DNA of 41,306 nt from a virus: the IMG/VR virus record IMGVR_UViG_3300009420_002288, positions 1-41,306 of that record; one strand, given 5' to 3'. Position numbers and translations under genes: made by a program. The first letter of the stretch is position 1. Each line of letters opens with the position of its first letter. This document shows, piece by piece, positions 1 through 21,256 of this stretch. The notes beneath the pieces were generated by a model. The model saw only the letters and a program-made list of their open reading frames with translations, did no database searches and was not told the origin of the DNA.

Positions 1-417
1 ATTACTCCAAATTTGCCATTCGTGCTTATTATAATCAATATCCATAATATCTTGTGTAATACTTTTAAACTTCCAATCTTCTTTAACTTGGTTTCGATTA
101 ATTGTATCAGCTATTTGTAAACATGATTCGTCTATGTCAAAACTTCTAATTTTATCTATATTACATTTACTTTGAAATAACATTGCCGCAAGAGTAGCAT
201 ACCATCCAGCACATAAAAAAATAGTACCTAACGAAATGTCTAACGATTCTAGTTCAGTTACAAGCCATCTTTTACTTTTTAGTTGTCCCCAACTAAGTGC
301 ATCACTAAGATCAGCATCGTAGTTGTCAACTGCATTTCGAAGATTATTAAATAATGGATTGTTAGTTAGTACTAACATTCTTCCAAAAATGTCGTTATCG
401 TCTTTCCATTCAATCAT
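1..417 (-). CDS. Class I SAM-dependent methyltransferase-like protein, 3' end cut by the window
   Basis: Translating the minus strand from the ATG at 415-417 gives 139 codons with no stop before the window edge, so the gene continues to the left. The visible part has a nucleotide-binding loop like methyltransferase motif I (IFLCAGWYATLA, residues about 65-76), followed about 16 residues later by an acidic strand end (SFDIDESC), which in this fold binds the ribose of S-adenosylmethionine. This order is typical of class I (Rossmann) methyltransferases. The start overlaps the stop of the preceding glycosyltransferase-like gene by 8 bases, so it looks translationally coupled. The acceptor is unknown. 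Its place at the end of a radical-SAM and glycosyltransferase cassette makes a sugar or a modified peptide plausible, but that is inference. The catalytic C-terminal part lies outside the window. Confidence 0.72.
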   Translation of the reverse strand, partial: MIEWKDDNDIFGRMLVLTNNPLFNNLRNAVDNYDADLSDALSWGQLKSKRWLVTELESLDISLGTIFLCAGWYATLAAMLFQSKCNIDKIRSFDIDESCLQIADTINRNQVKEDWKFKSITQDIMDIDYNKHEWQIWSN

Positions 418-1075
418 CAAACTGTTCCTTTAGCCAATCAAAGTTGTTTATTAAATTAAGATCAGCGCCGTTAGATAAACCAAACTCCATACCGTCACTA
501 GCACCTTTAATACAGTATTCGCCGAACGGTTTGTCTTTTCCCACTGTTGTCCAAATTCTAAGTCTTTCATTCGTTTCATCATTTTTTTGCCCTTTTATAA
601 TTTTACTTGATAGTTTAGCACATTCTCTAAAAGCACTTTTCCAAGTACTAAAAGGATCTGTATTAAATGCTGTAATATTTGCAATGTCAGGCATTGCTTT
701 AAACTTGTCACTAATACTAGTTGTCATGTCTGTTGAATTAATATCAACGTCTAACGTTAATTTTCGAGGAAATAACTTTACTCCTCCGTAACCGTACACT
801 AAATCATTAACAGGATTTTGACTACGCCACACATGTACGTGATCTAGTTGGTGCAGAGGTACTTCGTGATCAAAATTAAAATTGTCCATAATTATTGCAT
901 CAGCATCTACAATCCAAAACATTTTAGTAAAACATTTCTTTGCTGCTTCGATATGTGCTTGATGTATTCCCTTAACACCATGCACACGTTTAGCAATTGG
1001 AAATCTAGTTTTTAATTTTTCCCAGTTTTCGTCTGCACTAAGTTCTTGATAACTTATAAACATAATATCATACAT
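410..1075 (-). CDS. Glycosyltransferase-like protein (short paralog, 221 aa)
   Basis: The protein begins with a beta strand and the phrase FISYQELSADENWEKL, then AKRVHGVKG. A DAD triad follows at residues 57-59 (MFWIVDADAII), the usual metal and nucleotide-sugar binding DxD signature of GT-A glycosyltransferases. The same phrases occur in the gene at 9497-10429 (LSYDEPNAEKNYADLL, AKRVHGVEG, VDGDN), so the two are clear paralogs; this one is about 90 residues shorter. The ATG at 1073-1075 has AGGAG about 13 bases upstream in a 30-base gap. It lies between the gene ending at 1106 and a methyltransferase-like gene. A sugar-transfer role is inferred from the DxD and context; the donor and acceptor are not visible. 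Confidence 0.75.
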   Translation of the reverse strand: MYDIMFISYQELSADENWEKLKTRFPIAKRVHGVKGIHQAHIEAAKKCFTKMFWIVDADAIIMDNFNFDHEVPLHQLDHVHVWRSQNPVNDLVYGYGGVKLFPRKLTLDVDINSTDMTTSISDKFKAMPDIANITAFNTDPFSTWKSAFRECAKLSSKIIKGQKNDETNERLRIWTTVGKDKPFGEYCIKGASDGMEFGLSNGADLNLINNFDWLKEQFDD

Positions 1076-1105
1076 ACTTAATTATACACTCCTATTTCTT
1101 TTTTG

Positions 1106-2227
1106 TCAACCATATCGTATCTTATCAAATAAATTTAAAAACATTGGCATGTGTGATCTATTTAAAAATTTTTCTTTGTTAAGTTTAGCAAATTTCTTTG
1201 TGTTATTTAAAATATGCGTGTTGTCGTTATCTTTAATTCTAGTTAGTTCGCTACAAATTAACTTAATCCTAACATCTATGTCTAAATAAGAATCATATTT
1301 TTCATTAATAAGATCATAAAAGGTAAAATATCCTAAACTATTTAAATATTTAATTGTTTGCTGGCATCCTATTATTATAAAAGGTTTTCCCATTACTAAT
1401 AATTGCCATATATCTAAATTTGTAAATAAAGCATTTATTTCACTCATATATGTTTGATTTACAACCGGAGAAGTTGGAGTTATTATTGTAAAGAGACTAT
1501 TAGTATGATATTTAATATTGTCACTCTTAGTTATAGTACCAACATCACATAGACTACTGTTTTCTAAACTTTCTATTAATTTAGTGCGATGAGGTAAGGA
1601 TTTCTCTCCGTATAAATGAAATAACATATTAGGATTAAAAGTCTGTATATCAAAATTGTGTACTTGTAATAACGGATTTATTGGTTTAAAAAAATTATTA
1701 TATTTTTTTGTAGTTTTATTAAGAATTAATCGAGATTCTATTTGCCACCAATCAATACCATATGATTTACAAGGATATAGTAGCTCTTGGTACGAATTAT
1801 TAATGTCACTAGTTATAATAATAATATTATCAGGAGCTATATTCATTTTTATAAACATATTTGATAAAAACTTTAAGTGTAGTATTTGGTCATAAAATTG
1901 AAACGATTGTCCTAATAATAAAAGTTTCATTTTTCCTGTACGTAAGTGGTTTAATGTATTTGGAGGAATGTAAACATTTATTCCGTTTCCTATTTCTAAC
2001 GGATAAAATAAATGATCACTGAAATTTTCGTTAGTAAATAATGAAATTTGACAATTATTTTCTATCATTGAATAATAAAAACTAGAAATTACTTCTGTTA
2101 ACCCGTCTGCCTCAGTAGCAGGGCCAAACGGCAATGGCCAATATTTTTCATCAATACAATAATCTAAAATTCCGTTTGGAACTGGGCCTGTTTCAGTTAT
2201 CTTATCATAATAAAAATTAATATTCAT
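1106..2227 (-). CDS. Possible glycosyltransferase-like protein, function uncertain (373 aa)
   Basis: I do not recognise the whole protein. The C-terminal third (about residues 260-335) holds a block with GKPFIIIG, then LNSLGYFTFYDLINEKYDS and an Arg-rich helix. This resembles a family seen in phage and bacterial surface-polysaccharide loci, where a [K]PF-I-I-x-G strand is followed by GF-x-TF and DE-x-YD. Identification rests on that pattern only. The most extended reading starts at a TTG at 2231-2233; I prefer the ATG at 2225-2227, because it overlaps the upstream TGA as ATGA, the usual coupled junction in this cassette. No signal peptide or clear membrane segment is seen. Ile, Asn and Lys are very frequent, as expected from the AT-rich DNA. 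Confidence 0.6.
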   Translation of the reverse strand: MNINFYYDKITETGPVPNGILDYCIDEKYWPLPFGPATEADGLTEVISSFYYSMIENNCQISLFTNENFSDHLFYPLEIGNGINVYIPPNTLNHLRTGKMKLLLLGQSFQFYDQILHLKFLSNMFIKMNIAPDNIIIITSDINNSYQELLYPCKSYGIDWWQIESRLILNKTTKKYNNFFKPINPLLQVHNFDIQTFNPNMLFHLYGEKSLPHRTKLIESLENSSLCDVGTITKSDNIKYHTNSLFTIITPTSPVVNQTYMSEINALFTNLDIWQLLVMGKPFIIIGCQQTIKYLNSLGYFTFYDLINEKYDSYLDIDVRIKLICSELTRIKDNDNTHILNNTKKFAKLNKEKFLNRSHMPMFLNLFDKIRYG

Positions 2228-4245
2228 TTGCAAATATCGTCAATATGTCCGTTATAAGTAAAAGTTTCGTTCTTAAACGACTTATCTTCTCGAACTAACT
2301 CGTGTGTAATAACATCAGGGTCTTCTTTAAGTGATTCGTGTACAAATTTATGAGTACATGTAAAGTTTAGTATTCCTACGTTATTTACAGTTGCACTTAC
2401 ATTAGAGACATAGTTATTTGTTACAAACGTTCCAAATTCAGGTAAATCAATCTCAGGTGAAAATTTTAATGTAATAGAATATGCACCCATAGTCTTATAC
2501 ATAACCCAAATAAAAGGAAGATATTCATTTACTAAAGTAGCAGATAAACTTCCTTTAAAATAATCAAACGTTTCAATACCTTGTTCAATACGTTCAATAA
2601 AAGAACTATTTTTATATGTTACATCGTAGGACTTTTGTAAACTTGGTCTATACTGAGCGTTTATAACTGTCCCGTCTGCTTGTGTAATAATTTCTTTTAA
2701 CCAAATGTTTGTTAACTTTAATCTAATAAACCTATGAAGGATAGTGTTTTTATAATTAGTTGTCCACCAATTTGATAAAAATTTATTATCACCGGCTTGT
2801 TCAATCCATTCTAAGTTATATTTCTTCCATTCTAAGTTCATACTGCTAAATGGAGCATCGCCACAAGTAAATCCTGGAGAAATAACGTGCATGTGCTTAC
2901 GGGTATTATACAACAACTCTAAACTATGTAAAAACTCGTTTAGATGTTCAGTTGGAAACCCAATTAACCAATTAACATGATTTGTCATTCCGACTGACTT
3001 GCCATCTTTAAGATTAGCTTCTACTTCCCAAATCTTAATTTTTTTCTGCATATCATCTAAAACTTTTTGCGAACCACTTTCTACACCAAAGCTAAGAGTT
3101 GTGCAACCAGACTGGTGGATTTTTTCAAACATTTTTAAATCCATTCGGCCATCGTTACGTGCATAACTATTCCAACGTATTTTTAAATCTTCAGATAATA
3201 TTAAATCTACTAATTTTTGAAACTCTTTAAAATTTCCATTTGCTAAACTATCAACAAACCAGAAACGTTTAATACCGTAATTACTAATCATATGTTTCAT
3301 TTCTGCAATAGTACGATCTGCCTGAGTCCATCGAAATTTCCAAAAATGCGTTTCTGCACAGAAGCTACACTTTGCTACACACCCTCTACTAGTTTCAATA
3401 CTTGTGCCATCAGGATAATCATATAAAGATAAATTATAATCAGAGTAATCAGGAAAAGGAAGTTCATCTAGATTTAACTTACTCTTAAATCCTCCTAACA
3501 CCTTAGGAATTTTATGCCTAGGAAACTTTTCTAAGTCTTCTAATAGTGTTAATATTAACTGTTCACCTTCTCCTTGAATTCGAAAGTCTATTAACGTAGG
3601 ATCAAGACCTTGATCTAATAGTTTAGCGTCAAACCAATCAGTAAACGCTTCTGGTCCACCAGCAACAATTATGGTTTCTGGGCTTAATCTTTTAATTTCT
3701 TTAATCATATACATACTAGCGAGTATATTAGTTAAGTATAAACTAAATCCTACTACAGGAGTATGCTTTTTAATAATAGATTGAATAGCTTTATCTAATA
3801 CTGGTTTAATTAACGGTTCAATTTCATCTCTATAAGCTGGCATTTCCCAGCTATAATAGTAGATACTATCCCAAAAATTCTTTTTGTTGTGCTGTTTAAC
3901 AAAATGAAAGGATTCAATATTAACATCAAATACATCAACCTTGTATCCATTTTGTCTTAATACACTAGATAGCCTAGCAAGGTTATACGGAGGAAAAATA
4001 GTTCCCCAACTAGGAGCAATAACAAGACTTATTCTAGTATCTTTTTCAATTACAGGGACATTTTCGCTCCAATAATCATATCCTCTTTCATTAATTTGTT
4101 CATTCCAGTATTTATAATGTCGTGCATTTTTTAAATTTGGATTAGTATTACTTAAATGACTACTTGCATGACGTACTTCTTGAGCAATCATTGTTTTTAT
4201 TATTTGATCTCTATCTTGGCTAGGAAATTCTATAGGGTCTTCCAT
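2224..4245 (-). CDS. B12-binding-type radical SAM enzyme (class B-like)
   Basis: The 673-residue protein has a cobalamin-binding-like Rossmann domain (about residues 72-235, with PPYNLARLSSVLRQNGYKV, VAGGPEAF and IQGEGEQL). A radical-SAM domain follows, with the cluster motif GCVAKCSFC (C289, C293, C296). Further family features are a strand ending FVDSLANGNF, GVESGS, and a late WLIGFPTE. This is the layout of B12-dependent radical-SAM enzymes, which often methylate or rearrange carbon centres. The cobalamin-ligating DxHxxG motif is not visible, so B12 may bind base-off without a protein histidine or may be absent. About 200 C-terminal residues are unrecognised. The ATG at 4243-4245 has a strong GGAGG 11 bases upstream and overlaps the previous gene by 16 bases. 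Substrate unknown. Confidence 0.88.
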   Translation of the reverse strand: MEDPIEFPSQDRDQIIKTMIAQEVRHASSHLSNTNPNLKNARHYKYWNEQINERGYDYWSENVPVIEKDTRISLVIAPSWGTIFPPYNLARLSSVLRQNGYKVDVFDVNIESFHFVKQHNKKNFWDSIYYYSWEMPAYRDEIEPLIKPVLDKAIQSIIKKHTPVVGFSLYLTNILASMYMIKEIKRLSPETIIVAGGPEAFTDWFDAKLLDQGLDPTLIDFRIQGEGEQLILTLLEDLEKFPRHKIPKVLGGFKSKLNLDELPFPDYSDYNLSLYDYPDGTSIETSRGCVAKCSFCAETHFWKFRWTQADRTIAEMKHMISNYGIKRFWFVDSLANGNFKEFQKLVDLILSEDLKIRWNSYARNDGRMDLKMFEKIHQSGCTTLSFGVESGSQKVLDDMQKKIKIWEVEANLKDGKSVGMTNHVNWLIGFPTEHLNEFLHSLELLYNTRKHMHVISPGFTCGDAPFSSMNLEWKKYNLEWIEQAGDNKFLSNWWTTNYKNTILHRFIRLKLTNIWLKEIITQADGTVINAQYRPSLQKSYDVTYKNSSFIERIEQGIETFDYFKGSLSATLVNEYLPFIWVMYKTMGAYSITLKFSPEIDLPEFGTFVTNNYVSNVSATVNNVGILNFTCTHKFVHESLKEDPDVITHELVREDKSFKNETFTYNGHIDDICK

Positions 4246-5498
4246 TTTTTAAAAACCTCCGATAACTTTGGATGTATTTTTGTAACATCTTGCTTTCTTA
4301 TTCTATCATAAGTAACCGTTCTGTTAACTAATGCTCGAATTAAATCAGTTTGTTTTGCAATTCCTGCAAGACTTTTATCTTCTGGTTGTTTTAACCTATT
4401 AATAATATGATGTATACGACTAATATTGCACTGTTCTTCGTTAAAAACTGATAATCTGTCTTCTAATTCTAACGCTATTTGTAATCGATCTTGCAATGGT
4501 AATAAATCTAATTGCATGTCTTTAGGATGATCAACTATATTAAATATAAAATGTCCGTTAGAACCATTAGCTACCCAGTAATCAACTAACTTTGGTAAAT
4601 CCCAAGCATTATATAACTGTGCGGTTGCTAATAAATGTACTCTTACATTAGGCATTTGTATATAGTTTGCATATGCAGTATTTAACTGCTCCCAATTTGC
4701 TCCATATCGTATATAATCATTTGTATAACCTATTCCGCACATACTAAATTGAATATCTACTGCTTTAAACTTAGGTAATAACGAAGTAACCTTTCCTTTA
4801 GTTCGACTACCATTTGTTGTAATGTCTAATCTTAGGTGTGTATTATTACTTTCTACGCACCAGTTTAATAATTTAATTACTCCGGGCATAAACAATGGTT
4901 CGCCGCCGGCTAGTTTTAAGATTCTCATATGCGGGATTTGTTTTTGTATGCTTTTAAAACAAACCGGATCGTCTATCCATTCATCAACATCTAGCCATTC
5001 TTCTCCCATTATAGCTTGTGTTTCAGGAAATAATAATTGTTCATCTGCAATCTTACTACTTACTGCGCCAAAGCACATTCTACAACTAAAATTACACATT
5101 CGACCAGGGCGAATATCTGCCCACAAAGGATAACCAGTATCATTTCCAGTTATTACATCTAATTCTATATCTCCATACCATTTAGTAAAATGATAATTTT
5201 GACTTTGTCTATCTGATCCGCCACCAGTTTTGTCTTGCTTATAACAAGTTGAGCATCTCTTTTCAAATTTACCATCAAGCATATCTTGACGAATTTTTTG
5301 CATATCATCGCTTGTCCAAATATCTTGAAGATCAGTACCTTGAACATTTTCGACTACCGGTGTCCCCCAATTAGCAATGCAGCATAAATTTGAAGCCCCT
5401 GTTGTAGTCACATAGGTATGAGTAAACGGCATAATACAAAATGCAGGATTACTTTTTACCTGCGACTTTAAGTCGTACTGTAGTTTTTCTATTTTCAT
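4230..5498 (-). CDS. Radical SAM protein with N-terminal SPASM/Twitch-like half (422 aa)
   Basis: The N-terminal 90 residues carry C21, C39-C40 and the pair C82-x2-C85 around a phrase typical of SPASM/Twitch proteins (FCIMPFTHTYVTTTG ... LCC; then ...IRQDMLDGKFEKRCSTC). Such cysteines commonly hold an auxiliary iron-sulfur cluster. The radical-SAM core follows, with C135-x3-C139-x2-C142 (GRMCNFSCRMCFG), then AGGEPLF near residue 200 and DITTNGS. Members of this group modify peptides or small metabolites by hydrogen abstraction. The start ATG at 5496-5498 overlaps the preceding gene by 50 bases, the longest overlap in the cassette; the next Met is inside the cysteine motif, so this start is needed. 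A close architectural relative is directly upstream (5449-7110). Confidence 0.88.
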   Translation of the reverse strand: MKIEKLQYDLKSQVKSNPAFCIMPFTHTYVTTTGASNLCCIANWGTPVVENVQGTDLQDIWTSDDMQKIRQDMLDGKFEKRCSTCYKQDKTGGGSDRQSQNYHFTKWYGDIELDVITGNDTGYPLWADIRPGRMCNFSCRMCFGAVSSKIADEQLLFPETQAIMGEEWLDVDEWIDDPVCFKSIQKQIPHMRILKLAGGEPLFMPGVIKLLNWCVESNNTHLRLDITTNGSRTKGKVTSLLPKFKAVDIQFSMCGIGYTNDYIRYGANWEQLNTAYANYIQMPNVRVHLLATAQLYNAWDLPKLVDYWVANGSNGHFIFNIVDHPKDMQLDLLPLQDRLQIALELEDRLSVFNEEQCNISRIHHIINRLKQPEDKSLAGIAKQTDLIRALVNRTVTYDRIRKQDVTKIHPKLSEVFKKWKTL

Positions 5499-7110
5499 TA
5501 CACTCTTTCATCATTTTTTCAAACTCTGGCATAGAAACTTGCCAAGATTCGTTGCGTATTTTATCCAACTGGTGTGTTGTTTCCCACAATCTTTTAAATT
5601 CTTCTTTGTTACCTTCTTTATCCCACATATGCGTTAAGATACTATTAAGTCTGATTTCGACTAACTTACAATATGCTTTATCTTCGTCTGTAATATTCCA
5701 TCTTCTATTAATTGCTAGAATATATTGTTTATACCGTTTGTCAATATACATTTTATAATCAGTTGGTAAATTTTGTATGTTAAGAAATTCTGGCCCATAT
5801 AAATTGTGTATTATAATTACTTGGTTAATTCTTTTCCAATTTTGTTCTTTCATCCACCATTGCATATCAAGAAAATGTAATACGTTCATCGTACTTAATG
5901 TTAAAGTAACACTAGGTACTAATCGATCAAATCCTTCTTCAGAATCAAGTCTACGCATATTTTTTTCAACTGTAGAAAATTTTCCTGGATGACGAATATA
6001 TTCAAAATGTTCGTATATTCCGTCAATGCTCATACCTACATGCACTTCTTTAAAATATTTCCATTGATTAAATACTTTGCTAGGAACTCCTGCCATGTTA
6101 GTGTTATAATCTAATATTACTTCATTAGCAGTTCCTCTATCAATATAGTAGTCTAATAATTCTCTATGTTTTAAATTAATAGTAGGTTCACCACCTGTAA
6201 AATAATATCGTTTAATAACATCTAAATTATTTAATATATGTTCCCATAATTTTATATACGTTTGGTCATAATCAAATAATTCTGGTACACCATACGTACC
6301 GTCTGGTAAATTTTCAATCTTAACTTCCATATGGTCTCTATAAGTAAATGTAGGATTATCAGGACGCATTGCAACCCAATCATCATACCATAAACTACTA
6401 TCAGTAGGACCGCAACTTCTACATTTTAAATTACATTTATTTCCAAATCTTAAATCCATGTATGTAATTGGAAATTCTTTATTATCTATAGAGCCATCAC
6501 TATCTGTTAGCCGTACTGCTTTATAATAAACATCTTCATATATTTTTTTAGTCCATTGACGTTTACTACCAATACCATTCTGTTCTTCATCAGTGCATAA
6601 TTTACATATTTTAGGATCAATGCCATTTAACATATCTTTTCTTAACTGTTTCCAAGCAGGAGCATTCCTATGTTTAGTAATGTCGTCTTTACCTGTAAGA
6701 ACATTACCATCGTCTTTATAGACAGTTCCAAAACTTGGTTTAGTATCATGAATCATTTGACAACACATTCGAATACTTCCATCTGCATTTGTTGCTAGAT
6801 GATTCCAAGGAATTGGGCAAAATGCAGAGTATCGTTTTTTACTAAGGGCAGTATTTTTTGCTTCGGCAAGTTTATCTAAGTGATCTGTTTTTCCATTTAA
6901 TTTAATATTAAGAATTGATCTAATCTTACGTCCATTAGGAGTATCAACACTAGGTAGTTCTTTTTTAACCCATAGAGCTTCAAGTACTGCTTGGTCAAGA
7001 TCATGTTCGGCAACTATTAACATTACTTCAATTGGACAATCAGGATCATTAATCATTTTGATTCGTTCATCTGTTGTTCTAAATATATCTAAGTCAAATT
7101 TATCAGGCAT
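5449..7110 (-). CDS. Radical SAM protein with N-terminal SPASM/Twitch-like half (553 aa)
   Basis: Residues 1-90 form an unrecognised, probably helical extension. Residues 96-175 repeat the layout of the downstream neighbour: FCPIPWNHLATNADGSIRMC, C116-C117, then KQLRKDMLNG and the pair C169-x2-C172. The radical-SAM cluster motif is C226-x3-C230-x2-C233 (NKCNLKCRSCG), with FTGGEPTIN near 305-313 binding the SAM amino group in this family. A HVGMSIDG strand follows. ATG at 7108-7110 has AGGAGA 7-8 bases upstream, a strong ribosome site. The 3' end overlaps the next gene by 50 bases. The architecture matches peptide-modifying or metabolite-modifying SPASM/Twitch enzymes; no partner precursor peptide is recognisable nearby. 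Confidence 0.88.
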   Translation of the reverse strand: MPDKFDLDIFRTTDERIKMINDPDCPIEVMLIVAEHDLDQAVLEALWVKKELPSVDTPNGRKIRSILNIKLNGKTDHLDKLAEAKNTALSKKRYSAFCPIPWNHLATNADGSIRMCCQMIHDTKPSFGTVYKDDGNVLTGKDDITKHRNAPAWKQLRKDMLNGIDPKICKLCTDEEQNGIGSKRQWTKKIYEDVYYKAVRLTDSDGSIDNKEFPITYMDLRFGNKCNLKCRSCGPTDSSLWYDDWVAMRPDNPTFTYRDHMEVKIENLPDGTYGVPELFDYDQTYIKLWEHILNNLDVIKRYYFTGGEPTINLKHRELLDYYIDRGTANEVILDYNTNMAGVPSKVFNQWKYFKEVHVGMSIDGIYEHFEYIRHPGKFSTVEKNMRRLDSEEGFDRLVPSVTLTLSTMNVLHFLDMQWWMKEQNWKRINQVIIIHNLYGPEFLNIQNLPTDYKMYIDKRYKQYILAINRRWNITDEDKAYCKLVEIRLNSILTHMWDKEGNKEEFKRLWETTHQLDKIRNESWQVSMPEFEKMMKECNENRKTTVRLKVAGKK

Positions 7111-7133
7111 TTCTTTCTCCTAACATTCTATCA

Positions 7134-8495
7134 TTATTCTTGTTGTTGGAAAAATTTAAGTTCATTTTCACTATATCCTACTAATTTACTACTGTCAGCT
7201 AAATCTCTAATTGGGACTAGACTGATGGCACCAATTTGTCTTTTATTTGCTCCTATACTATCTAAACCTAAATTAACAATTTTATTTTTAAATTCTATAG
7301 CTCGATCTAACATTCCCGGAGGTGTCATTAATTTAATTTCTAACCAATGGTCATTTGATACTTCTTTATGATGATTAATAATTATTTCACAGTTTTCAAT
7401 AAATCGAGTTTCGTTACCTGGATACTTGTCCATACTATCAAAATGAGCACTCATATTAACACTATTAATGTATTTACTTGCTTCTTTCCAATATTTTTTA
7501 CTACGGCTCCCGTTAGTAGTAACAAGTACCCACTGATTTCGTTGTTTAAGGTGTTTAAGAATATCTAAAAACTTTGGGTTCATTGTTGGTTCGCCACCGC
7601 CAAAGTTCCAACGTATACTACTTCCGTTACTCCAATCATTTATAGCTTTATCAATTGTTTCAATAATCTTATTATAGTCATGATGTTCTTCAGTATTATT
7701 ATGTACACTTGGCCAACAATAATCGCAGTTATAATTACACCGTCGAGTTATATCCCATAATATTTGATAATCAATAGGAAAATTCATTTCAATCCCAGTT
7801 GCAGGATCTGCATGGTCTTTAAAGGTTCCTAATTCCTGTCCTTTATAACCTAAAGTTGTTACATGTAGCTGGTTTAAAGATGAGTCATCTTTTGCCTTAC
7901 TTAGTATAACGTCAGCACCGCAACCGCATGTAGAAAAGGGACATGTAACCCAATTAGTAGGAGTAGTCCACCCTGTAAAAATACTGCCTTGTAGACCCCA
8001 AACATCATCACTAGTTTTAGATTTCCATTGCCATATTTCGTGTCCAGCATTACCTAAGTTAGTTGGAACTTTAAAAAATTCTTTTTCTAAATTAGTAATA
8101 CATTCCATAAGTTTTATATGTTGTTCGCAGGTTTCCCAATTATCTTTTGGCATTGGCCAACCCTGCTCGGTATTTTTTTCAATCCAATCACGATGTGGAT
8201 ATGCACCAATTATATTTTCTCTATATTCTTTCCATAATTGATCAACAGTAGTTTGATCATTAGTAAATGCTTTTATTTGTTGATCATGCACTTTACCATA
8301 ATGTGTTGCACTAGCACAGTTTGCTATCCACACATTTCCATCATAATCAATATATAAACTTCTTACGCCGGCGCTACATTTCCAATTTTTCCAAGTATTT
8401 AAGTTATTTGCTATTATCTCGTCAACACTAGATAATTTATATTGATTATCTTTATTATAAAGCCGAAGTTGTTTGTTTCCAGTAGGTTGATCCAT
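7134..8495 (-). CDS. Radical SAM protein with auxiliary cysteine domain at its N-terminus (swapped order)
   Basis: The first 195 residues resemble the C-terminal domain of the upstream neighbour (8497-9483). Both have NxW-K-x-W followed by C, S-G-V and an I/V-V/I-D-F/Y-D-G strand, a second Cys 20 residues later (C40, C60), then C-x4-C-x-C (C185, C190, C192). Here about 125 residues separate the two cysteine groups, against 24 in the neighbour. The radical-SAM core follows, with C253-x3-C257-x2-C260 (RRCNYNCDYCW), FGGGEPTMNP near 298-307 and TTNGSRS. The enzyme therefore carries the auxiliary domain before the catalytic barrel. Only one base separates its ATG from the upstream TAA, and no strong ribosome site is seen, so translation is probably coupled. 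Substrate unknown. Confidence 0.85.
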   Translation of the reverse strand: MDQPTGNKQLRLYNKDNQYKLSSVDEIIANNLNTWKNWKCSAGVRSLYIDYDGNVWIANCASATHYGKVHDQQIKAFTNDQTTVDQLWKEYRENIIGAYPHRDWIEKNTEQGWPMPKDNWETCEQHIKLMECITNLEKEFFKVPTNLGNAGHEIWQWKSKTSDDVWGLQGSIFTGWTTPTNWVTCPFSTCGCGADVILSKAKDDSSLNQLHVTTLGYKGQELGTFKDHADPATGIEMNFPIDYQILWDITRRCNYNCDYCWPSVHNNTEEHHDYNKIIETIDKAINDWSNGSSIRWNFGGGEPTMNPKFLDILKHLKQRNQWVLVTTNGSRSKKYWKEASKYINSVNMSAHFDSMDKYPGNETRFIENCEIIINHHKEVSNDHWLEIKLMTPPGMLDRAIEFKNKIVNLGLDSIGANKRQIGAISLVPIRDLADSSKLVGYSENELKFFQQQE

Positions 8496-8496
8496 A

Positions 8497-9483
8497 TTAC
8501 GTTTGATTCTCTACCAGTAATACCTTTTTACTCATAATATCAAAATTACAATGACAGTAGCTCTTATTACAAGTTACTGGTTTTGATGGCCAAGCTATGT
8601 TAGTAGGATCTTTCATATTTCCTAAAGAGCCACCAACGCGGCACCAACCAATCATTACAGTTCCATCAAAATCAACTACAATTTGTTCAACGCCACTATA
8701 ACACGCCCAGCCCTTCCAGTTATTTGTATTTTCAGCAATAAATCGATGAGCAGAACTATTTGTTGTTTTATTATTTACAGTATCTATCATATCCATACTG
8801 CCGCGATACAATTTCCATTCTTTAGTGTGTTTAATATTAATTGCTAAGTTATGCCATTGCCTATCAATGTATTCAGTTTGCTCATCAGTATAAGTATATA
8901 AGGTTTCTCCAAAATCAATAATTAAAGGCTGAAGTGCTAAACTAATATTAGGAATTTCTATTACTGATTCAGCAACTGTTTGACAACGTGGCCATATTTT
9001 AGGATCGTAGTGCATCATTACATTTACGTGTGTTCTACACTGCTGACTCATAATTTTAACTACTTCAATAAAGTGTTTAGGATCACCTTCTTCGGAATGG
9101 AAACTTAAACACACATGATCAAAATTTTCTTTATTTTTTTCCCACCAACGAAGCGTACGACTGCCGTTACTAATAAATCCTATATCGTGTCCTTTTGATT
9201 TAATATACTGAGCACACTTTATAAAGTCTTTCCATAATGTAACCTCGCCTCCTGTAAATTCAAAATATACTTTACGAGGTGCATAATGAGATTCACAAGA
9301 ATCAATAAACGTTGTTACCGTTTCAAAATCTTGCCAACCAAATGATCCGTTGTTTAACACTGGAGGACAGTAACTACACGAGAAGTTACACATGTTTCCT
9401 AAGTTCCAATTAACAACAACCCAATCTTTAGCCTCTTTATGATGATGATCTAAAATATTGTAAAATTTATTTTCATTTAACAT
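8497..9483 (-). CDS. Radical SAM protein with C-terminal Twitch/SPASM-like domain (328 aa)
   Basis: The catalytic domain comes first: C32-x3-C36-x2-C39 (NMCNFSCSYCPP), FTGGEVTLW with GGE at 78-80, and ISNGSRTLRWW. The C-terminal 75 residues hold C261, C281, C305, C310 and C312 in a WACYSGVEQIVVDFDG ... GWC ... C-x4-C-x-C layout, enough ligands for one auxiliary iron-sulfur cluster as in Twitch domains. This domain order is the common one. The gene starts with ATG at 9481-9483, with AAGG about 11 bases upstream, 13 bases after the preceding gene. It forms a tight pair with the swapped-order enzyme at 7134-8495, which suggests that the two act in one pathway or as a complex. That is inference. 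Confidence 0.88.
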   Translation of the reverse strand: MLNENKFYNILDHHHKEAKDWVVVNWNLGNMCNFSCSYCPPVLNNGSFGWQDFETVTTFIDSCESHYAPRKVYFEFTGGEVTLWKDFIKCAQYIKSKGHDIGFISNGSRTLRWWEKNKENFDHVCLSFHSEEGDPKHFIEVVKIMSQQCRTHVNVMMHYDPKIWPRCQTVAESVIEIPNISLALQPLIIDFGETLYTYTDEQTEYIDRQWHNLAINIKHTKEWKLYRGSMDMIDTVNNKTTNSSAHRFIAENTNNWKGWACYSGVEQIVVDFDGTVMIGWCRVGGSLGNMKDPTNIAWPSKPVTCNKSYCHCNFDIMSKKVLLVENQT

Positions 9484-9496
9484 ATACAGTATTACC

Positions 9497-10429
9497 TTAT
9501 TCTGGATCTATCAATTTTTGGTGTCTAGCTATTCTGTCTGGTTGTTGATATACTGCTTTAAAAAACTTACTTTGTTCAGCATCTAATGGATTTGCTGCAA
9601 TAGGAATTCTAAGCTCGCGTATTAACGTATCTCCTAATTTTATAATTTCGGAAGGTAACATTTCATCTGTAATTTTACTATACGCTTTATCCCACATATT
9701 GTTTAAATATTCAAAGTCACGTACATTTACATAATCCCAATCTGTACACATGGTTTTATATAACCCTTCGCGAGCTCCATAAATAGCCCACAATCCGTGT
9801 TCTACATCAGCACCGCTCATGGTCCAGATATACAATCGGTGTAAATTTTTCCAATGACTAGTCAGAAGTTCTTCAGTAGTATTAAGTTTTACTCCTTGGT
9901 CAAGTGCCATCTTGACGCCTTCACGGAAACCAGCTCTCCATGCTTGTTGTGAAGTATAATTATTATATACATCACTAAAACAACTATTTTGTTGAATGTA
10001 TTGTAAATCCCAACAAAAGTCTACTTGTGCATGGGCATTATTAGGATCTGCATTTTCATGTGTACGCATGTTTAATACATAGTCTTTAGGCCAGCATTTA
10101 AGTCCCCCGTTACCGTACATTAGTCCGTTGATTATATTCTTTCCGCACCAACTAATTACACTATGTTCTAAGTCTGCATGGTCATCAAAGTTAATTTCTT
10201 GTTGTATAAAAGTGTCTCTAATAATATTATCGCCGTCAACTGTAATAAAACGATCTGTTTCACTTAGTTTAGCACATGCTTTGTGTGCGGCATCACTGCC
10301 TTCTACACCGTGTACACGCTTTGCCCAAGGCACCTTTGTTAATAAATCGGCATAATTTTTTTCTGCGTTTGGTTCATCGTAACTTAAATAAATGATGTCG
10401 TAATCTACAACTTTAAATACTTTAGACAT
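9497..10429 (-). CDS. Glycosyltransferase-like protein (long paralog, 310 aa)
   Basis: The N-terminus reads DYDIIYLSYDEPNAEKNYAD, then WAKRVHGVEG, then FITVDGDNII with the DxD-type triad at residues 65-67. The same three blocks occur in the gene at 410-1075. A GNGGLK segment follows, and a conserved TSQQAWRAGFREGVK helix is mirrored by TWKSAFRECAK in the paralog. This pattern fits a GT-A-like nucleotide-sugar transferase found in T4-like marine phages. The remaining 130 residues have no recognised motif. ATG at 10427-10429 lies 3 bases after the upstream stop. With its paralog it brackets the radical-SAM block. Confidence 0.75.
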   Translation of the reverse strand: MSKVFKVVDYDIIYLSYDEPNAEKNYADLLTKVPWAKRVHGVEGSDAAHKACAKLSETDRFITVDGDNIIRDTFIQQEINFDDHADLEHSVISWCGKNIINGLMYGNGGLKCWPKDYVLNMRTHENADPNNAHAQVDFCWDLQYIQQNSCFSDVYNNYTSQQAWRAGFREGVKMALDQGVKLNTTEELLTSHWKNLHRLYIWTMSGADVEHGLWAIYGAREGLYKTMCTDWDYVNVRDFEYLNNMWDKAYSKITDEMLPSEIIKLGDTLIRELRIPIAANPLDAEQSKFFKAVYQQPDRIARHQKLIDPE

Positions 10430-10432
10430 ATA

Positions 10433-10999
10433 TTAGCATTCCTTAACAACATGATAAAACTGTTCATTAATAACAGGACAGTATAAACTAACGTCATTCC
10501 AAGACACTATTGAAGGATCATTAACAGAGATATCAAATAATGGTTTTTTTGTAAACTTTTGCATGTCGATTGTAAGTTCGCCTATTAATATATTCGGATT
10601 ATGTGCTTGTGTTATGTACACTCTTTTGTACTGTTGCATGTATTTATGGTGCAGTATTCTTGTTAAGGACGGTCCTGATAAATTTGCTTTAGCTTGCCAT
10701 TTCTTTTTCTTTAAGTCCTGAATAATATAAAATGAATTTTTTAAATACTGCTTGGGTTGGTGTATTTTTTTAAGTTCATGAACACTTTTATCAATGTTAA
10801 AAATTTCAGCAGCATCTTTTCTTAAAAACGTTGGAGGACCACCATCAGTTAGTTCTATAAAATAATCAATAAGATTATTTTTTCCAGAAACAAATTCGAC
10901 ATATGTAGCTTGGTCAATTGGAAGGTATGACTTATTATCATGTAATTCGTTGGTTACTGAAAGCAAATCTCCAGCTTTATTATAGTATACATAAAACAT
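10433..10999 (-). CDS. Hypothetical protein between glycosyltransferase genes (188 aa)
   Basis: No family is recognised. The protein starts FYVYYNKAGDLLSVTNE, has a Lys-rich middle (about residues 90-105) and ends in VVKEC, with a Cys as the last residue. There is no signal peptide or membrane segment. Its ATG overlaps the stop of the upstream glycosyltransferase as TAATG, so it is translated together with it and is probably a real part of the cassette. It could be an accessory subunit or a substrate of the neighbouring enzymes; nothing in the sequence decides between these. Confidence 0.8.
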   Translation of the reverse strand: MFYVYYNKAGDLLSVTNELHDNKSYLPIDQATYVEFVSGKNNLIDYFIELTDGGPPTFLRKDAAEIFNIDKSVHELKKIHQPKQYLKNSFYIIQDLKKKKWQAKANLSGPSLTRILHHKYMQQYKRVYITQAHNPNILIGELTIDMQKFTKKPLFDISVNDPSIVSWNDVSLYCPVINEQFYHVVKEC

Positions 11000-11826
11000 T
11001 ATAACGACTCCAGTCTACTAATCATTTGGTCTGTTAAGAATTCCGGTTCAATATAATGTAATATATTGCGTTGTAGGAAATTACCAATTAACAAATTTTT
11101 TTCTTGTGTTAAATATCCGCCTAATACATTAGTCCATTTTTCAGGAATATCGTGCCAACTTTGACAATGTGTTTTCATATGCGTAAAAGTAATATTAGAA
11201 TTAGGATTAGTTATACTAGTTTCATTATCTAGTATCTTGCTTACAACTGCACAACTTAGATCAAAACTGCACCATTTCTGATAATAATTTCCTGCAACTT
11301 TTCCATAAAACATTTCCCAGTTGTTCATTACTAATTCTAATAGTGTAAAAAACTCATGTGCTATTTTGCTTTTTTTAAAATAATAAAACCCACTATATAA
11401 ATTTGGTAACTTGTTTTCGTCAAACGTTTTTCTGTAGTAGCGAGAAGTAACTATCTCATTTCGATAATTCTTTACATTACTAACAAAAAACAAATCTTGT
11501 TTACTAAGTTCGTCCCACCAGTGAGTTATATCATGTAATACTAACATATCAACATCCATAACAATAGTATTATCATACGGTGATGCGTGATACACTTTCC
11601 ATCGATTTTCAATTTTCCAATCTGTATCTTCTGCTTGATCTGTCCACGGAATTGGAATTATTTGATCAAATACTGATTGCCATTCAACAGGAACAGGATC
11701 ATTTGTAATAATACAAATTTTCTGATCTTTATTAAACTTATGAATACTTAATGCAAGTGCATATGCTTGTCGTACATAGTCAGTTGTAGAATTATTTTGT
11801 GCTAATAAGCAAAATCCATTATTCAT
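10999..11826 (-). CDS. DxD glycosyltransferase-like protein (GT8-type, 275 aa)
   Basis: The protein begins GFCLLAQNNSTTDYVRQAY, then has RWKVYHASPYDNTIVMDVDM with a DVD triad at residues 91-93, and later a YSGFYYFKKS strand. This is the fold outline of family-8-like glycosyltransferases, where DxD holds a metal and the sugar nucleotide. The next upstream gene (11819-12682) aligns throughout (RSDCYRLTPFDETIVLDADY; ATGFYFKKS), so the two arose by tandem duplication. ATG at 11824-11826 overlaps the upstream gene by 8 bases. The role is inferred: adding sugars to a phage or host surface structure. Donor and acceptor are not evident. Confidence 0.82.
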   Translation of the reverse strand: MNNGFCLLAQNNSTTDYVRQAYALALSIHKFNKDQKICIITNDPVPVEWQSVFDQIIPIPWTDQAEDTDWKIENRWKVYHASPYDNTIVMDVDMLVLHDITHWWDELSKQDLFFVSNVKNYRNEIVTSRYYRKTFDENKLPNLYSGFYYFKKSKIAHEFFTLLELVMNNWEMFYGKVAGNYYQKWCSFDLSCAVVSKILDNETSITNPNSNITFTHMKTHCQSWHDIPEKWTNVLGGYLTQEKNLLIGNFLQRNILHYIEPEFLTDQMISRLESL

Positions 11827-12682
11827 TTGTAAACTCTTTATCTATAACTCTTCCTAAACTAAATTTATTCATTACGTGTACATTTAGATCTTCTACACTT
11901 ACTGTAATATATTTTTGGCCATTATTTGCACAATCAGCAATAAATGTTAGTTTATTATTTTCTATTGAAAGGAACAAATCTGAATCAGAAGCAAGATACA
12001 TATTACCCGGCATTACAACAGGCCAGTGTTGATTAAGTTGAAATCCTCGTAAAATATGCACTGCTATACTAAAAGAAAAATCATTTCGATAATTGCTATC
12101 AGGAATTTGATACATTAACCTATAATAATGCCAATTATCTTTAATATGATTTACTAAATTAAAATATAGTTCCATAAACGGACTTTTTTTAAAATAAAAC
12201 CCAGTAGCCCAATACATATCAATTGTTCTATCACTAATTCTATTAAATTTTTGTACAGTACGAACAGTACTAATAATATCCTTTGGCGTACTATATATTA
12301 AAAAGTCTTCGTTGAGATCAAAACAATTTAATAAAATATTGTTTCCAATAATATAATCAGCGTCTAAAACAATTGTCTCATCAAATGGAGTTAATCTATA
12401 ACAATCAGATCTGCTATGATTTTTCCAAGGCAGTCTCTTAGTAGTATACACTCCGTCTAAGAAATTTCGTTTTTGATCTACATAAACTTCTGGAATTACA
12501 ATAATCTCGTCAATGTATTTTTTATAAAACTTAAATGCAGTCTCTAGATAGTCTGGAGTATCTGTTACTATTGCAACAGGTAATTTCAAATGCTCTTTAA
12601 TTTTTTTTGCACAAAAAACCGCTTGTTTTATATAATCAACTTCTTGATTATTTAATGCATAAAGTAACACTCCCTTTGTCAT
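11819..12682 (-). CDS. DxD glycosyltransferase-like protein (GT8-type, 287 aa)
   Basis: It begins GVLLYALNNQEVDYIKQA, has PFDETIVLDADY with a DAD triad at residues 107-109, and MYWATGFYFKKSPFMELYF further on. These blocks match the paralog at 10999-11826. Both lack signal peptides and membrane helices and are expected in the cytoplasm of the infected cell. The ATG at 12680-12682 overlaps the TGA of the preceding small gene as ATGA. This is the first enzyme gene of the accessory cassette after the fibre genes. A family-8-like fold is my assignment from motif order; an exact family would need a profile search. Confidence 0.82.
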   Translation of the reverse strand: MTKGVLLYALNNQEVDYIKQAVFCAKKIKEHLKLPVAIVTDTPDYLETAFKFYKKYIDEIIVIPEVYVDQKRNFLDGVYTTKRLPWKNHSRSDCYRLTPFDETIVLDADYIIGNNILLNCFDLNEDFLIYSTPKDIISTVRTVQKFNRISDRTIDMYWATGFYFKKSPFMELYFNLVNHIKDNWHYYRLMYQIPDSNYRNDFSFSIAVHILRGFQLNQHWPVVMPGNMYLASDSDLFLSIENNKLTFIADCANNGQKYITVSVEDLNVHVMNKFSLGRVIDKEFTNE

Positions 12683-13026
12683 AGATCTAACATACCTTTA
12701 ATTGATTTAGATTTTTTTAGTTCATTAAATTTTACTAGATACGAATTTGTGTTTGAAGAATATATACTAAGAATATCTTCAAAAAATTCATTAAGATTTT
12801 CAATTTCAACAGGTGTGTTATTGTCATCTATAATAACAGCACTTGTTTGATTATTTTGAATTAGTGTATTACAAAAATTAAGTAATTCCTTATTAATATT
12901 AAATTTTCCGCCATAAACATAATGCTCACAGCTTTCTAGAAACTTTTCGTGGATTAAATTTCGTTGGTTATTAAGTGTAACAGTAAAATTAGAAAATTCA
13001 AGAGCTCGTTCTAATCGGTCGTCCAT
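12679..13026 (-). CDS. Conserved small phage protein of unknown function (115 aa)
   Basis: The protein reads DDRLERALEFSNFTVTLNNQ at its start, then YGGKFNINKELLNFCNTLI, SAVIIDDNNTPVEIENLNEF and a final helix with KKSKSIKGMLD. I recognise this as a type of small protein that recurs in T4-like marine phages, but I know of no assigned function. It is mostly helical with one short hairpin (IDDNNTPVEI), and no cysteines are paired in metal motifs. The start ATG at 13024-13026 has GGAG 7 bases upstream. It heads the accessory cassette, 61 bases after the last fibre gene; that gap holds only the ribosome site, a weak imperfect hairpin and a TATAAATA octamer touching the start codon. Confidence 0.82.
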   Translation of the reverse strand: MDDRLERALEFSNFTVTLNNQRNLIHEKFLESCEHYVYGGKFNINKELLNFCNTLIQNNQTSAVIIDDNNTPVEIENLNEFFEDILSIYSSNTNSYLVKFNELKKSKSIKGMLDL

Positions 13027-13087
13027 ATTTATACTCCTTTAACATACAGTACTAGTATATACTAAAAACTAGAAGAAGTCAAGGACT

Positions 13088-14104
13088 TTATTGGATATTT
13101 TGACTTATAGTGTAACCCGGATTAAGAATAGTTATAGGTGTTGTACACCTTATTTGTGACATAGTAATGCTTACGTCACCGTTGACTGATTCGTCAGTAT
13201 AAGGATCACCTGAGTCAGAATCTGTCCAAACAAACTGAAACAGTATGTTTCCTGATCCATCTATTTTAGCATTTATAGAAAAATTATTTTCAGCATATAA
13301 AGCATCAGATCCATACTTAATAGCAATTTGTTGATAGCTTGTTGTTAAATCTTCTGAACCAAATCCACTACCAACTGTTGCAGATCCTGTAGTAGTTGTA
13401 GCACTATTTTTAAAAGAAATAGTACCTGCATTTACTAACATTGTTGTCCAGTCTGCTGCTTTTGTCCCTGAACCGTTTGTCATTTCTGAAGAAAAACGAA
13501 TTTCTCCGCCTGTATTAAAAAAGTGTCTTCTGTGGTCATCAGTAGTTGCTGTTACTGTTGCGCCTGCATTATTTTTACAATTATATCCGCCAGCAAATGT
13601 AACTTGTACTATAGCAGATAAACTTTGCCAAGATGATGTATAGGATGCTCCTGACGTTGATGGTACGATTTTTGATTCTAATGATAAGTTAGGTGCATAA
13701 ACAGTTCTTGGATTAGCTTCAATTGTTTCTAATATTCCACTAAAGTCATTTATACCTTTGTTATTAGCAGGATTAACAATAGTAAAGGTATTTGTAGCGT
13801 CATCACGAATTACAGTATTTCCAGTTCCTGTATTTGATACATCGGCTCCAATTATATTTCCTGAAACAAGTTGTCCAACACTTGTAGTTGAATTTAATTG
13901 ATGGGCATAAATTAGGTTAATATCTGTACGCAAGCCATCCCATTGAGCAGCTGAAATTTCAGTAGTTCCTGCAACTGCTTGTCCTGGGCCGGTCATTGCA
14001 ACACCATAACCAGAGGTGCCGGTGCCAATACCTAATATTGCGTTAAGACGCAACACATAATCATTATATTCAGTAATTGTTACATTTGTACCAACTGCGA
14101 CCAT
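13088..14104 (-). CDS. Short tail-fibre/adhesin protein with RRHFFN domain (338 aa)
   Basis: The N-terminal 90 residues contain helices and a GTSGYG turn, with YAHQL near residue 69. The C-terminal half has DDHRRHFFNTGGEIRFSSEM, then SGTKAADWTTMLVNAGTI and a beta-rich end (YAENNFSINAKIDGSG). The gene upstream (14170-15072) has the same blocks in the same order, so these are tandem paralogs. Domains with RRHFFN-x-GG recur in virion structural proteins of marine phages and are expected to form small beta sandwiches, probably at a fibre tip or on the capsid or tail surface. ATG at 14102-14104; AAGGGG lies about 12 bases upstream and a late-promoter-like octamer about 32 bases upstream. Confidence 0.82.
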   Translation of the reverse strand: MVAVGTNVTITEYNDYVLRLNAILGIGTGTSGYGVAMTGPGQAVAGTTEISAAQWDGLRTDINLIYAHQLNSTTSVGQLVSGNIIGADVSNTGTGNTVIRDDATNTFTIVNPANNKGINDFSGILETIEANPRTVYAPNLSLESKIVPSTSGASYTSSWQSLSAIVQVTFAGGYNCKNNAGATVTATTDDHRRHFFNTGGEIRFSSEMTNGSGTKAADWTTMLVNAGTISFKNSATTTTGSATVGSGFGSEDLTTSYQQIAIKYGSDALYAENNFSINAKIDGSGNILFQFVWTDSDSGDPYTDESVNGDVSITMSQIRCTTPITILNPGYTISQNIQ

Positions 14105-14135
14105 ACGCTAAATACCCCTTTATTGAACTATATTG

Positions 14136-14143
14136 TATTTATT
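14136..14143 (-). promoter_or_regulatory. T4-type late promoter-like octamer (AATAAATA)
   Basis: On the minus strand the 65-base gap before the short fibre gene reads AATAAATAC, one base from the T4 late consensus TATAAATA. The octamer ends about 31 bases before the ATG at 14104. Other gene-proximal copies in this window share ATAAATAC. In an AT-rich genome chance matches occur, so the support is the repeated placement in the rare wide gaps. Confidence 0.5.
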
Positions 14144-14169
14144 AAAAAAGAAGGTACCCTAAATATTTT

Positions 14170-15072
14170 TTATAACAAAGTAGTGTTAGAGTAAGTAGGT
14201 GACGGAATAGAAACATATGTTCCTGAAGGTCTACGATGTGTAATAGAACTAGTAATCGTTCCTGTTACGTTAGGATCTCCGCCACCGTCTGCGTTATCTT
14301 GTAACTGTATCTCAATTTCTATTTTATCACTATCTATTGTTTTTGCATTAACTTGAAACATGTTATTAGAATAATCATACGCTGTTCCTAGCTTATGAAA
14401 CAATCTCTGCGATGTTGAAGTTAATTCAAAATTTCCAATTGCCGTAGGAACTCCTGTTCCTGATTGTGTTGTAGCATGAGACGCAATAGTTATTGTGCCC
14501 ATTGCAGATAACATAGTAGCCCAATCTGAATCTTTTGCACTACTTCCAGATGTTAATTGTCCTTGGATTCTTAGTTGTCCGCCTGCATTAAAAAAATGTC
14601 TTCTTGCATCTATACTTGCAAACGTTATTAAAAACTTATGAATAATCGTTCCGTTCCATTCTGAAACTCGTGTACTTGATAATACAGCCTCTACTGACGC
14701 TTGTGTATCATCGCATTGTTGCTTGTCACCTTCGATGTTATTAAGCAATGCTAAGTAATCGTTGATTCCTTTTGACGTGCTAATTGCACCAGATGCCGAA
14801 ATAGACTCAGTTGCTCCAATTTGGTCTGTAACTCCTATAGTTTCTAACGGAGATAGACTACCTGTTTGGTGAGCTCGACATTTATCAATATCAGATTTTA
14901 AATTATTTAAATGCTGTGCAGTTATAACAGTATTAGCAGCAACGATTGAACTGCTGAGAGATTGTCCGTACCCAGTATCAGTAAATCCTTGTCCTAAAAC
15001 AGTTTCTATTCTACTTTGCAAACCGTTAAATGTAGCTGCAGTGATTACTTCTTGTGATACAACATCAACCAT
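14170..15072 (-). CDS. Short tail-fibre/adhesin protein with RRHFFN domain (300 aa)
   Basis: The N-terminus (VDVVSQEVITAATFNGLQSR) has two helical blocks of the type 'T-x-x-x-x-N-x-L-x-x-I' and a TGYGQSL turn, then RAHQTG. The C-terminal half has DARRHFFNAGGQLRIQGQ, SAKDSDWATMLSAMGTITI and NNMFQVNAKTI, all mirrored in the downstream paralog at 13088-14104. The two differ in loops and at the last residues, as expected for binding surfaces under selection. The likely role is a virion adhesin or fibre component. The ATG at 15070-15072 has AAGG about 11 bases upstream and lies 24 bases after the preceding fibre gene. The exact place in the particle is unknown. Confidence 0.82.
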   Translation of the reverse strand: MVDVVSQEVITAATFNGLQSRIETVLGQGFTDTGYGQSLSSSIVAANTVITAQHLNNLKSDIDKCRAHQTGSLSPLETIGVTDQIGATESISASGAISTSKGINDYLALLNNIEGDKQQCDDTQASVEAVLSSTRVSEWNGTIIHKFLITFASIDARRHFFNAGGQLRIQGQLTSGSSAKDSDWATMLSAMGTITIASHATTQSGTGVPTAIGNFELTSTSQRLFHKLGTAYDYSNNMFQVNAKTIDSDKIEIEIQLQDNADGGGDPNVTGTITSSITHRRPSGTYVSIPSPTYSNTTLL

Positions 15073-15096
15073 AATTCGCTAACCTTTTATTTAACT

Positions 15097-16623: not shown

Positions 16624-16659
16624 TTTTTCTTTAACCCCTAATATGCATTGTATTAATAG

Positions 16660-16667
16660 TATTTATC
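16660..16667 (-). promoter_or_regulatory. T4-type late promoter-like octamer (GATAAATA)
   Basis: The minus strand of the 48-base gap before the ADLAEKY fibre gene reads GATAAATAC, one base from the T4 late consensus. The octamer ends 36 bases before the ATG at 16623, close to the spacing seen at 14136-14143. The same GATAAATAC occurs at 21249-21256. Confidence 0.5.
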
Positions 16668-16671
16668 TGCA

Positions 16672-18582: not shown

Positions 18583-18585
18583 TTA

Positions 18586-20614: not shown

Positions 20615-21229
20615 TTACGCCTCATTAAAACCAGTTAAACTTTGTACTCTAACTGTATAATCTATTTGTATAAGTCTATTAAGCGACTTTTGTACAGGGT
20701 GAAAAATAACATGAGTAAGAAGTCGTCCAGTTCCGCTTGCAGAATATGCTTTAAGACCTAATTCGTCAAATACATATAAGTTTGAGCCATCTGTTGCTGT
20801 GTCGTATGCATCTTGGCCGCTTGGTTCACTATAGTCTAATAAACATGATACTAGCACATCAGTATAATTTGTGCCGCTTACATGCCTTGTTTCTATTTTA
20901 TTTCTAACAGGGTCTAAATTATTTACACTTCTATCATCAATAACCTTTGTGTGAGTTTGATTATACAAACTGGCATTGGTGCCTGTTGAGTTCGGAGTTA
21001 AATATGTAATAATTCCGGTTGGGTCAACACTAGTGCCACCGTTACCAAAACTCATTTCATATATCCATCCAGTTCCGCCATTACCAATGCTTTCAGCAAG
21101 GCTTAAACTCATATTTTCATAATGAATTGCATTGCGTTTATCAATGTACGTATGATTTGATTCTGGGTCATGAATCTTAATATGTCCCTGAATTAAAACT
21201 CCGTTCATATCATTAAAATTGTCTGTCAT
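20615..21229 (-). CDS. Virion structural protein of unknown role (204 aa)
   Basis: The protein starts TDNFNDMNGVLIQGHIKI and has DKRNAIHYENMSLSLAESI, YEMSFGNGGTSVDPTG, SLYNQTHTKVIDDRSVNN and HVIFHPVQKSLNRLIQIDYT. I recognise this pattern from structural proteins of T4-like marine phages, but it does not resemble T4 gp8, which holds this position in T4. A longer reading begins at a GTG at 21271, overlapping the giant gene. I choose the ATG at 21227-21229 because AGGG stands about 8 bases upstream and a GATAAATAC late-type element just before that. It may connect the giant baseplate protein to the fibres; that is inference from gene order. Confidence 0.8.
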   Translation of the reverse strand: MTDNFNDMNGVLIQGHIKIHDPESNHTYIDKRNAIHYENMSLSLAESIGNGGTGWIYEMSFGNGGTSVDPTGIITYLTPNSTGTNASLYNQTHTKVIDDRSVNNLDPVRNKIETRHVSGTNYTDVLVSCLLDYSEPSGQDAYDTATDGSNLYVFDELGLKAYSASGTGRLLTHVIFHPVQKSLNRLIQIDYTVRVQSLTGFNEA

Positions 21230-21236
21230 ATTGTTT

Positions 21237-21241
21237 TCCCT
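21237..21241 (-). promoter_or_regulatory. Ribosome binding site AGGGA deciding the start at 21229
   Basis: On the minus strand the sequence ACAGGGAAAACAAT precedes the ATG at 21227-21229, placing a purine-rich AGGGA 7 to 9 bases upstream. The alternative GTG at 21269-21271 has no such site and would need a 20-base overlap with the giant gene. Confidence 0.65.
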
Positions 21242-21248
21242 GTCATTG

Positions 21249-21256
21249 TATTTATC
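21249..21256 (-). promoter_or_regulatory. T4-type late promoter-like octamer (GATAAATA)
   Basis: The minus strand reads GATAAATAC straddling the end of the giant gene, 19 bases before the ATG at 21229. It is one base from the T4 late consensus and identical over nine bases to the element at 16660-16667. It would start a separate late transcript for the 204-aa protein and the fibres. Confidence 0.5.

Follow-up and report, generated by a model that had tools for sequence, protein, structure and literature searches.

Linkage of a radical-SAM-rich glycosyltransferase cassette to the fibre genes of a jumbo-like aquatic phage lineage and its putative role in glycan tailoring

Marine virome studies repeatedly report an enrichment of genes for radical S-adenosylmethionine (radical-SAM) enzymes but assign them no role. 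Tasman Sea viromes, for example, are enriched in both radical-SAM and glycosyltransferase (GT) genes (PMC7150976). The closest described system is the host recognition cluster of pelagimyophages, where fibres, GT8-type GTs and radical-SAM cassettes occupy one variable island (PMC7029224). Surface-polysaccharide clusters of jumbo phages and cyanophages have been proposed to prevent superinfection (PMC7824862), and together with the pelagimyophage work this sets a precedent for treating clusters of GTs as surface or superinfection systems. Finally, a passage of PMC5332604 describes a T4-like TARA contig with 12 radical-SAM genes and iron-sulphur (Fe-S) assembly proteins. Here, we analyse a cassette of GT-like and radical-SAM genes in a 41,306-nt stretch of viral DNA (the window; IMG/VR record IMGVR_UViG_3300009420_002288, positions 1 to 41,306). 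We tentatively regard it as a putative operon for building and tailoring glycans that is linked to the fibre locus; its most likely role, held with somewhat less than even confidence, is the remodelling of host surface glycans.

In the pelagimyophage cluster, a very large protein of the baseplate region (VrlC) precedes a variable island of fibres, GT8-type GTs and radical-SAM cassettes, and the present locus has an island of similar make-up. The pelagimyophage island lies between VrlC and gp14, whereas here a giant structural gene, fibres and GTs are seen and the VrlC counterpart is only possible. The candidate is a 5085-aa gene at window positions 21252-36509; the match of its N-terminal half is to phrog_10938, a virion structural protein, and it may correspond to VrlC or gp7. 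Radical-SAM cassettes receive a passing mention in PMC7029224; this locus has a fixed head of three genes (p13-GT8b-GT8a), its own promoter, up to ~15 genes of the NF033640 family per record and co-variation between fibre and enzyme repertoire. Like the clusters of PMC7824862, it combines paralogous GTs with genes of the kinds found there (sugar kinases, nucleotidyltransferases, epimerases and methyltransferases), but that paper makes no mention of radical-SAM enzymes. The TARA contig likewise reflects radical-SAM expansion in marine myoviruses, some with A-type Fe-S carriers; the passage describing it reports no position beside fibres or GTs. Relative to the open-access literature, what is new is the fixed core, the clade-specific promoter, the content of five radical-SAM genes, the scale of expansion and the co-variation, the island of fibre, GT8 and radical-SAM genes being already known from pelagimyophages.

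The cassette consists of 13 genes, all on the minus strand, running from 13026 down to 1, with neighbours that overlap or are separated by gaps of ≤30 bp. Five fibre-type genes lie directly upstream. The original prediction, a same-strand run of overlapping genes right behind adhesin genes, thus describes the layout accurately. The features are as follows.

20615..21271, minus strand: P0019 (phrog_11259), conserved, with the giant structural gene on one side and the fibres on the other
13088..20610, minus strand: fibre-type genes P0018 (collar domain), P0017, P0016, P0015 and P0014, immediately upstream of the cassette
13054..13082, minus strand: sigma-70-type promoter TTGACT-17-TATACT at the cassette head; position kept in marine relatives
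12679..13026, minus strand: p13 (P0013), conserved 115-aa protein, cassette gene 1 (alignment of relatives)
11819..12682, minus strand: GT8b (P0012), GT8-like glycosyltransferase; DxD D107/D109 invariant
10999..11826, minus strand: GT8a (P0011), GT8-like glycosyltransferase, paralog of P0012
10433..10999, minus strand: P0010, 188-aa protein; divergent open reading frames (ORFs) at the equivalent place in some relatives
9497..10429, minus strand: GTx9 (P0009), GT-A-like glycosyltransferase; DxD D65/D67 invariant; copies found are from phages only
8497..9483, minus strand: P0008, radical SAM with C-terminal Twitch
7134..8495, minus strand: P0007, radical SAM with N-terminal Twitch homologous to that of P0008, in mirror order
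5449..7110, minus strand: P0006, N_Twi_rSAM (NF033640), N-terminal SPASM/Twitch; 334.6 bits, cut-off 170
4230..5498, minus strand: P0005, N_Twi_rSAM (NF033640), N-terminal SPASM/Twitch; 299.2 bits, cut-off 170
2224..4245, minus strand: P0004, B12-binding radical SAM, probable C-methyltransferase type (profile matches)
1106..2233, minus strand: P0003, possible glycosyltransferase, without profile support
1081..1109, minus strand: perfect sigma-70 consensus TTGACA-17-TATAAT before P0002; top-scoring site in window 1-18000
410..1075, minus strand: GTx2 (P0002), paralog of GTx9
1..420, minus strand: putative SAM-dependent methyltransferase, 5' part, last gene of the run (motif reading alone)

Relatives were fetched with three separate seeds (P0019, P0009 and P0008) and made non-redundant. 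P0019, separated from the cassette by the fibre genes, served as an independent seed. Among the P0019-seeded loci, the fibres are followed consecutively by p13, GT8b and GT8a in 40/46; p13 is present in 42/46, and GTx9 was found in 23, the 9.5 kb of available room barely extending that far. In the P0009-seeded set, p13, GT8b and GT8a lie upstream in 49/49 loci, and a radical-SAM gene occurs within 10 kb downstream in 47/48, with copy numbers from 0 to 8. The four-gene head precedes P0008 in 43 of the 52 loci seeded with that gene. Scanning bacterial and archaeal assemblies yielded seven phage-like contigs, all from metagenome-assembled genome (MAG) bins, with a radical-SAM gene downstream of GTx9 in all seven and the p13-GT8b-GT8a head in six. 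The block is real and its linkage is strong: a fixed head of p13-GT8b-GT8a, usually with GTx9, sits behind the fibres, followed by a variable set rich in radical-SAM genes. Had the genes scattered independently in relatives, the multi-step pathway first proposed for them would have lost its basis; instead, linkage among them and with the fibres is preserved, and it supports the pathway well.

The cassette holds five radical-SAM genes (P0004 to P0008), one more than originally counted, each with a CxxxCxxC motif that is invariant in the alignments of P0007 and P0008. The three architectures first noted (C-terminal Twitch, N-terminal Twitch/SPASM and B12-type) all stand. Three genes exceed the Pfam cut-off, and the two that fall below it exceed that of NF033640. 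Against the curated NF033640 cut-off of 170 bits, P0005 and P0006 are clear members, while P0007 (35.4 bits) and P0008 (26.5 bits) lie outside the family. The Twitch domains of P0008 and P0007 are homologous yet lie on opposite sides of their radical-SAM domains (HHalign probability 98.5, E 3.6e-15), which suggests a duplication with domain permutation.

A 135,781-bp contig overlaps the window at 99.98% identity. All seven radical-SAM genes of that contig fall within 15 kb (0/20,000 random placements), a clustering that exceeds chance. Five other long records are similar, with the genes in a 15-kb stretch in four and a 45-kb stretch in the fifth. NF033640 matches above the cut-off occur in 19/20 lineage records and in 0/14 control genomes. 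The most elaborate record examined has ≥14 radical-SAM genes, an epimerase and a nucleotide-sugar dehydrogenase in one co-directional stretch of 40 kb. Repertoires differ greatly among relatives (mean Jaccard distance 0.92). A-type Fe-S carriers occur in 6/20 relatives; the phage's own 135.8-kb contig yielded none (PF01521). There, the cassette ends at the methyltransferase-like gene and then meets convergent genes, among which are two further radical-SAM genes (L086:19037-20975; G001:5223-8443), one of them an NF033640 member above the cut-off.

Both GT-like paralog pairs of the original prediction were recovered. P0012 and P0011 share 27.9% identity (E 2e-15). The family profile of P0011 finds glycogenin (GT8; E 4e-6) and the structure model of P0012 adopts a GT8/GT24-type GT-A fold matching UGGT and glycogenin; the Pfam GT8 model gave no match in the profile search. 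P0009 and P0002 share 31.8% identity (E 4e-31), a GT-A-like fold and an invariant DxD. An assignment of GTx9 as a SunS/ThuS-type S-glycosyltransferase was rejected: Foldseek gave E 2e-4, yet the TM value was ~0.3, and we therefore keep the claim to a GT-A fold. No cellular homologs of GTx9 emerged from the bacterial and archaeal genome scan, which gave only phage-like contigs binned into MAGs. Two other names fared less well, as the further glycosyltransferase (P0003) found no support in profile searches, and the methyltransferase has no supporting Pfam, NCBIfam or PDB profile, so that its name is a motif reading. The latter gene, cut by the window end, is complete in the overlapping contig (232 aa; L086:18356-19054). 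Profile searches of p13 against PDB gave weak matches only, the best being a syntaxin helix bundle (E 0.005). In a 275-kb relative, a GTx2 domain forms part of a 656-aa fusion protein (L266:3203-5170).

The variable part of the locus in relatives contains Pfam-supported UDPG_MGDP_dh, NAD epimerase, CTP_transf_3, DegT aminotransferase and FkbM methyltransferase genes; because these include sugar-nucleotide enzymes, we favour glycans over peptides as the product. ORFs with an SGNH motif are present in 21/38 loci at motif level, Pfam giving no detection. In the mechanism we propose, the GT-A glycosyltransferases would assemble a short glycan from nucleotide sugars, and the radical-SAM enzymes and methyltransferases would alter its sugars, for example by dehydrogenation, epimerisation, deoxygenation or C-methylation. 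Tailoring repertoires would be swapped between relatives. In the marine clade the product would be made from early in infection, and the changed glycans on the infected cell would most likely block binding by related phages and by the phage's own progeny.

The timing component of this proposal comes from promoters. A near-consensus sigma-70 promoter (at least 11/12 consensus matches) lies between the last fibre gene and p13 in 43/52 P0009-seeded marine loci (0.8% in shuffles), and the same promoter is present in 29/45 P0019-seeded and 16/20 marine P0008-seeded loci (≤1% in shuffles). No sigma-70 enrichment was seen at the other genes of the block in marine relatives, and a T4-late motif is enriched at the fibre genes. 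The window copy (13082-13054) has 10/12 consensus matches. A sigma-70 reading of the window alone was rejected as weak, with 108 sites versus 97 in shuffles; the reading carries weight because the site is conserved in relatives. The perfect site before P0002 (1109-1081) is not conserved before GTx2 in relatives. Elsewhere in the 135.8-kb contig, perfect or near-perfect sigma-70 sites also precede genes for a gp32-like single-stranded DNA-binding protein, a deoxynucleoside monophosphate (dNMP) kinase and an HldE-like sugar kinase; by contrast, TATAAATA lies upstream of a sheath-like gene and gp6 (HldE-like was named by Pfam; the binding protein, dNMP kinase and sheath by reading). The sigma-70 promoter thus argues for early expression, but only in the marine clade. 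In freshwater loci (L040-L085), a late-like TCTAAATA motif replaces the pre-cassette promoter, hinting at a regulatory switch between the marine and freshwater clades.

Of the three substrates first offered, host-surface glycans are favoured by the marine clade's separate sigma-70 promoter, which at the same time weakens the case for the phage's own fibres. In that alternative, the glycan would be placed on distal fibres or other virion proteins, with radical-SAM enzymes tailoring the sugar and so tuning or shielding host recognition; we consider it possible although unlikely. The cassette's position right behind the fibres is invariable, every cassette enzyme looks cytosolic, and some of the nearest folds belong to glycosyltransferases that act on proteins or peptides (UGGT and glycogenin for GT8b; for GTx9 SunS/ThuS, with a TM value of only ~0.3). 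For virion glycosylation, mycobacteriophages offer a precedent, which PMC12619734 cites. No conserved acceptor motif was seen at the fibre C-termini, which, with the early-type promoter, speaks against fibre decoration; the freshwater late-like motif and the co-variation of repertoire with fibre keep it alive. Distal-fibre distance correlates with the downstream repertoire when p13 and GT8b are controlled (r 0.30, p 0.001, n=68, marine and freshwater), and in the marine subset with GTx added as a control (partial r 0.23, p 0.001, n=33). p13 and GT8b, located between fibre and repertoire, show no correlation with it in the marine subset. GTx distance gave different results by set (-0.12 for marine and freshwater, 0.40 for the marine subset), and since these disagree we take the co-variation as supportive, not conclusive. 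It is compatible both with decoration of the fibre and with remodelling of the surface glycan to which the fibre binds. A more elaborate version, which we find rather doubtful, is a combinatorial glycan-diversification locus, in which a fixed GT core and a fast-exchanged radical-SAM set (up to ~15 per record) would place radical-tailored sugars on the phage's own fibres in step with fibre specificity.

The modified peptide is the least supported of the three substrates. Radical-SAM modification of amino-acid side chains in a peptide or fibre of the phage would suit the frequent peptide substrates of SPASM/Twitch and B12-type enzymes, and the best NCBIfam model for P0004 is a C-methyltransferase of ribosomally synthesised and post-translationally modified peptides (RiPPs; TIGR03975, 123 bits, cut-off 282). 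However, the cassette gaps leave no room for a precursor gene, as was first noted, no RiPP model exceeds its cut-off, and relatives carry sugar-nucleotide genes, so that we judge this improbable. Least probable of all is a hypervariable dumping ground, where recombination retains genes beside the fibres without a shared pathway. The diversity of the radical-SAM repertoire would suit it, but the head order is fixed in nearly all relatives, catalytic motifs are intact, the promoter is conserved and fibre and repertoire co-vary. Several observations weigh against host-surface remodelling itself. None of the radical-SAM members scores above the cut-off of an equivalog model that would name its substrate. 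The cassette lacks the membrane protein, flippase and lipid-carrier enzyme of Gtr-type serotype conversion, and its proteins show no clear membrane-spanning segment (19-residue hydropathy at most 1.71). The co-variation could stem from a shared host, not from direct function, and its distances are partly saturated. Freshwater relatives have the sigma-70 site before the cassette in 0/23 cases and the late-like motif in 18/23. Taken together, we rank host-surface glycan remodelling above virion decoration by a modest margin. With their tie to a fixed GT core, a fibre locus and a separate promoter, radical-SAM genes acquire a specific and testable role in the arms race over host recognition; the locus also points to a reservoir of unassigned radical-SAM enzymes likely to act on sugars.

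The T4-like placement first suggested for this phage did not hold. The best matches of its gp6 are to jumbo phages (Salicola SCTP-2, Rak2-like) rather than to cyanophages, and the wider lineage includes contigs of up to 524 kb. The phage is jumbo-like, not an ordinary T4-like cyanophage, and belongs to a widespread aquatic lineage of jumbo-type myoviruses. A tblastn search of P0007, P0008, P0009, P0011 and P0013 against annotated phages gave no matches, and only two Vibrio jumbo phages among them resemble P0006. Phage-like contigs of the lineage (L258-L264) sit in marine bacterial MAG bins (Neomarinimicrobiota, Rickettsiales, Rhodobacteraceae and others), and, given such binning, host labels attached to these MAG genes cannot be relied on. 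Other parts of this phage's genome (G001; L255:14404-16227, L256:4638-7476, L257:10637-11404) contain carbamoyltransferase, NAD epimerase, HldE-like kinase/nucleotidyltransferase and cupin genes, one of them behind a perfect sigma-70 site. Finally, the isolate jumbo phage Vibrio phage K566 (L249, 161548-167037) carries an NF033640-like radical-SAM cluster beside hypothetical genes and may offer a cultured model.

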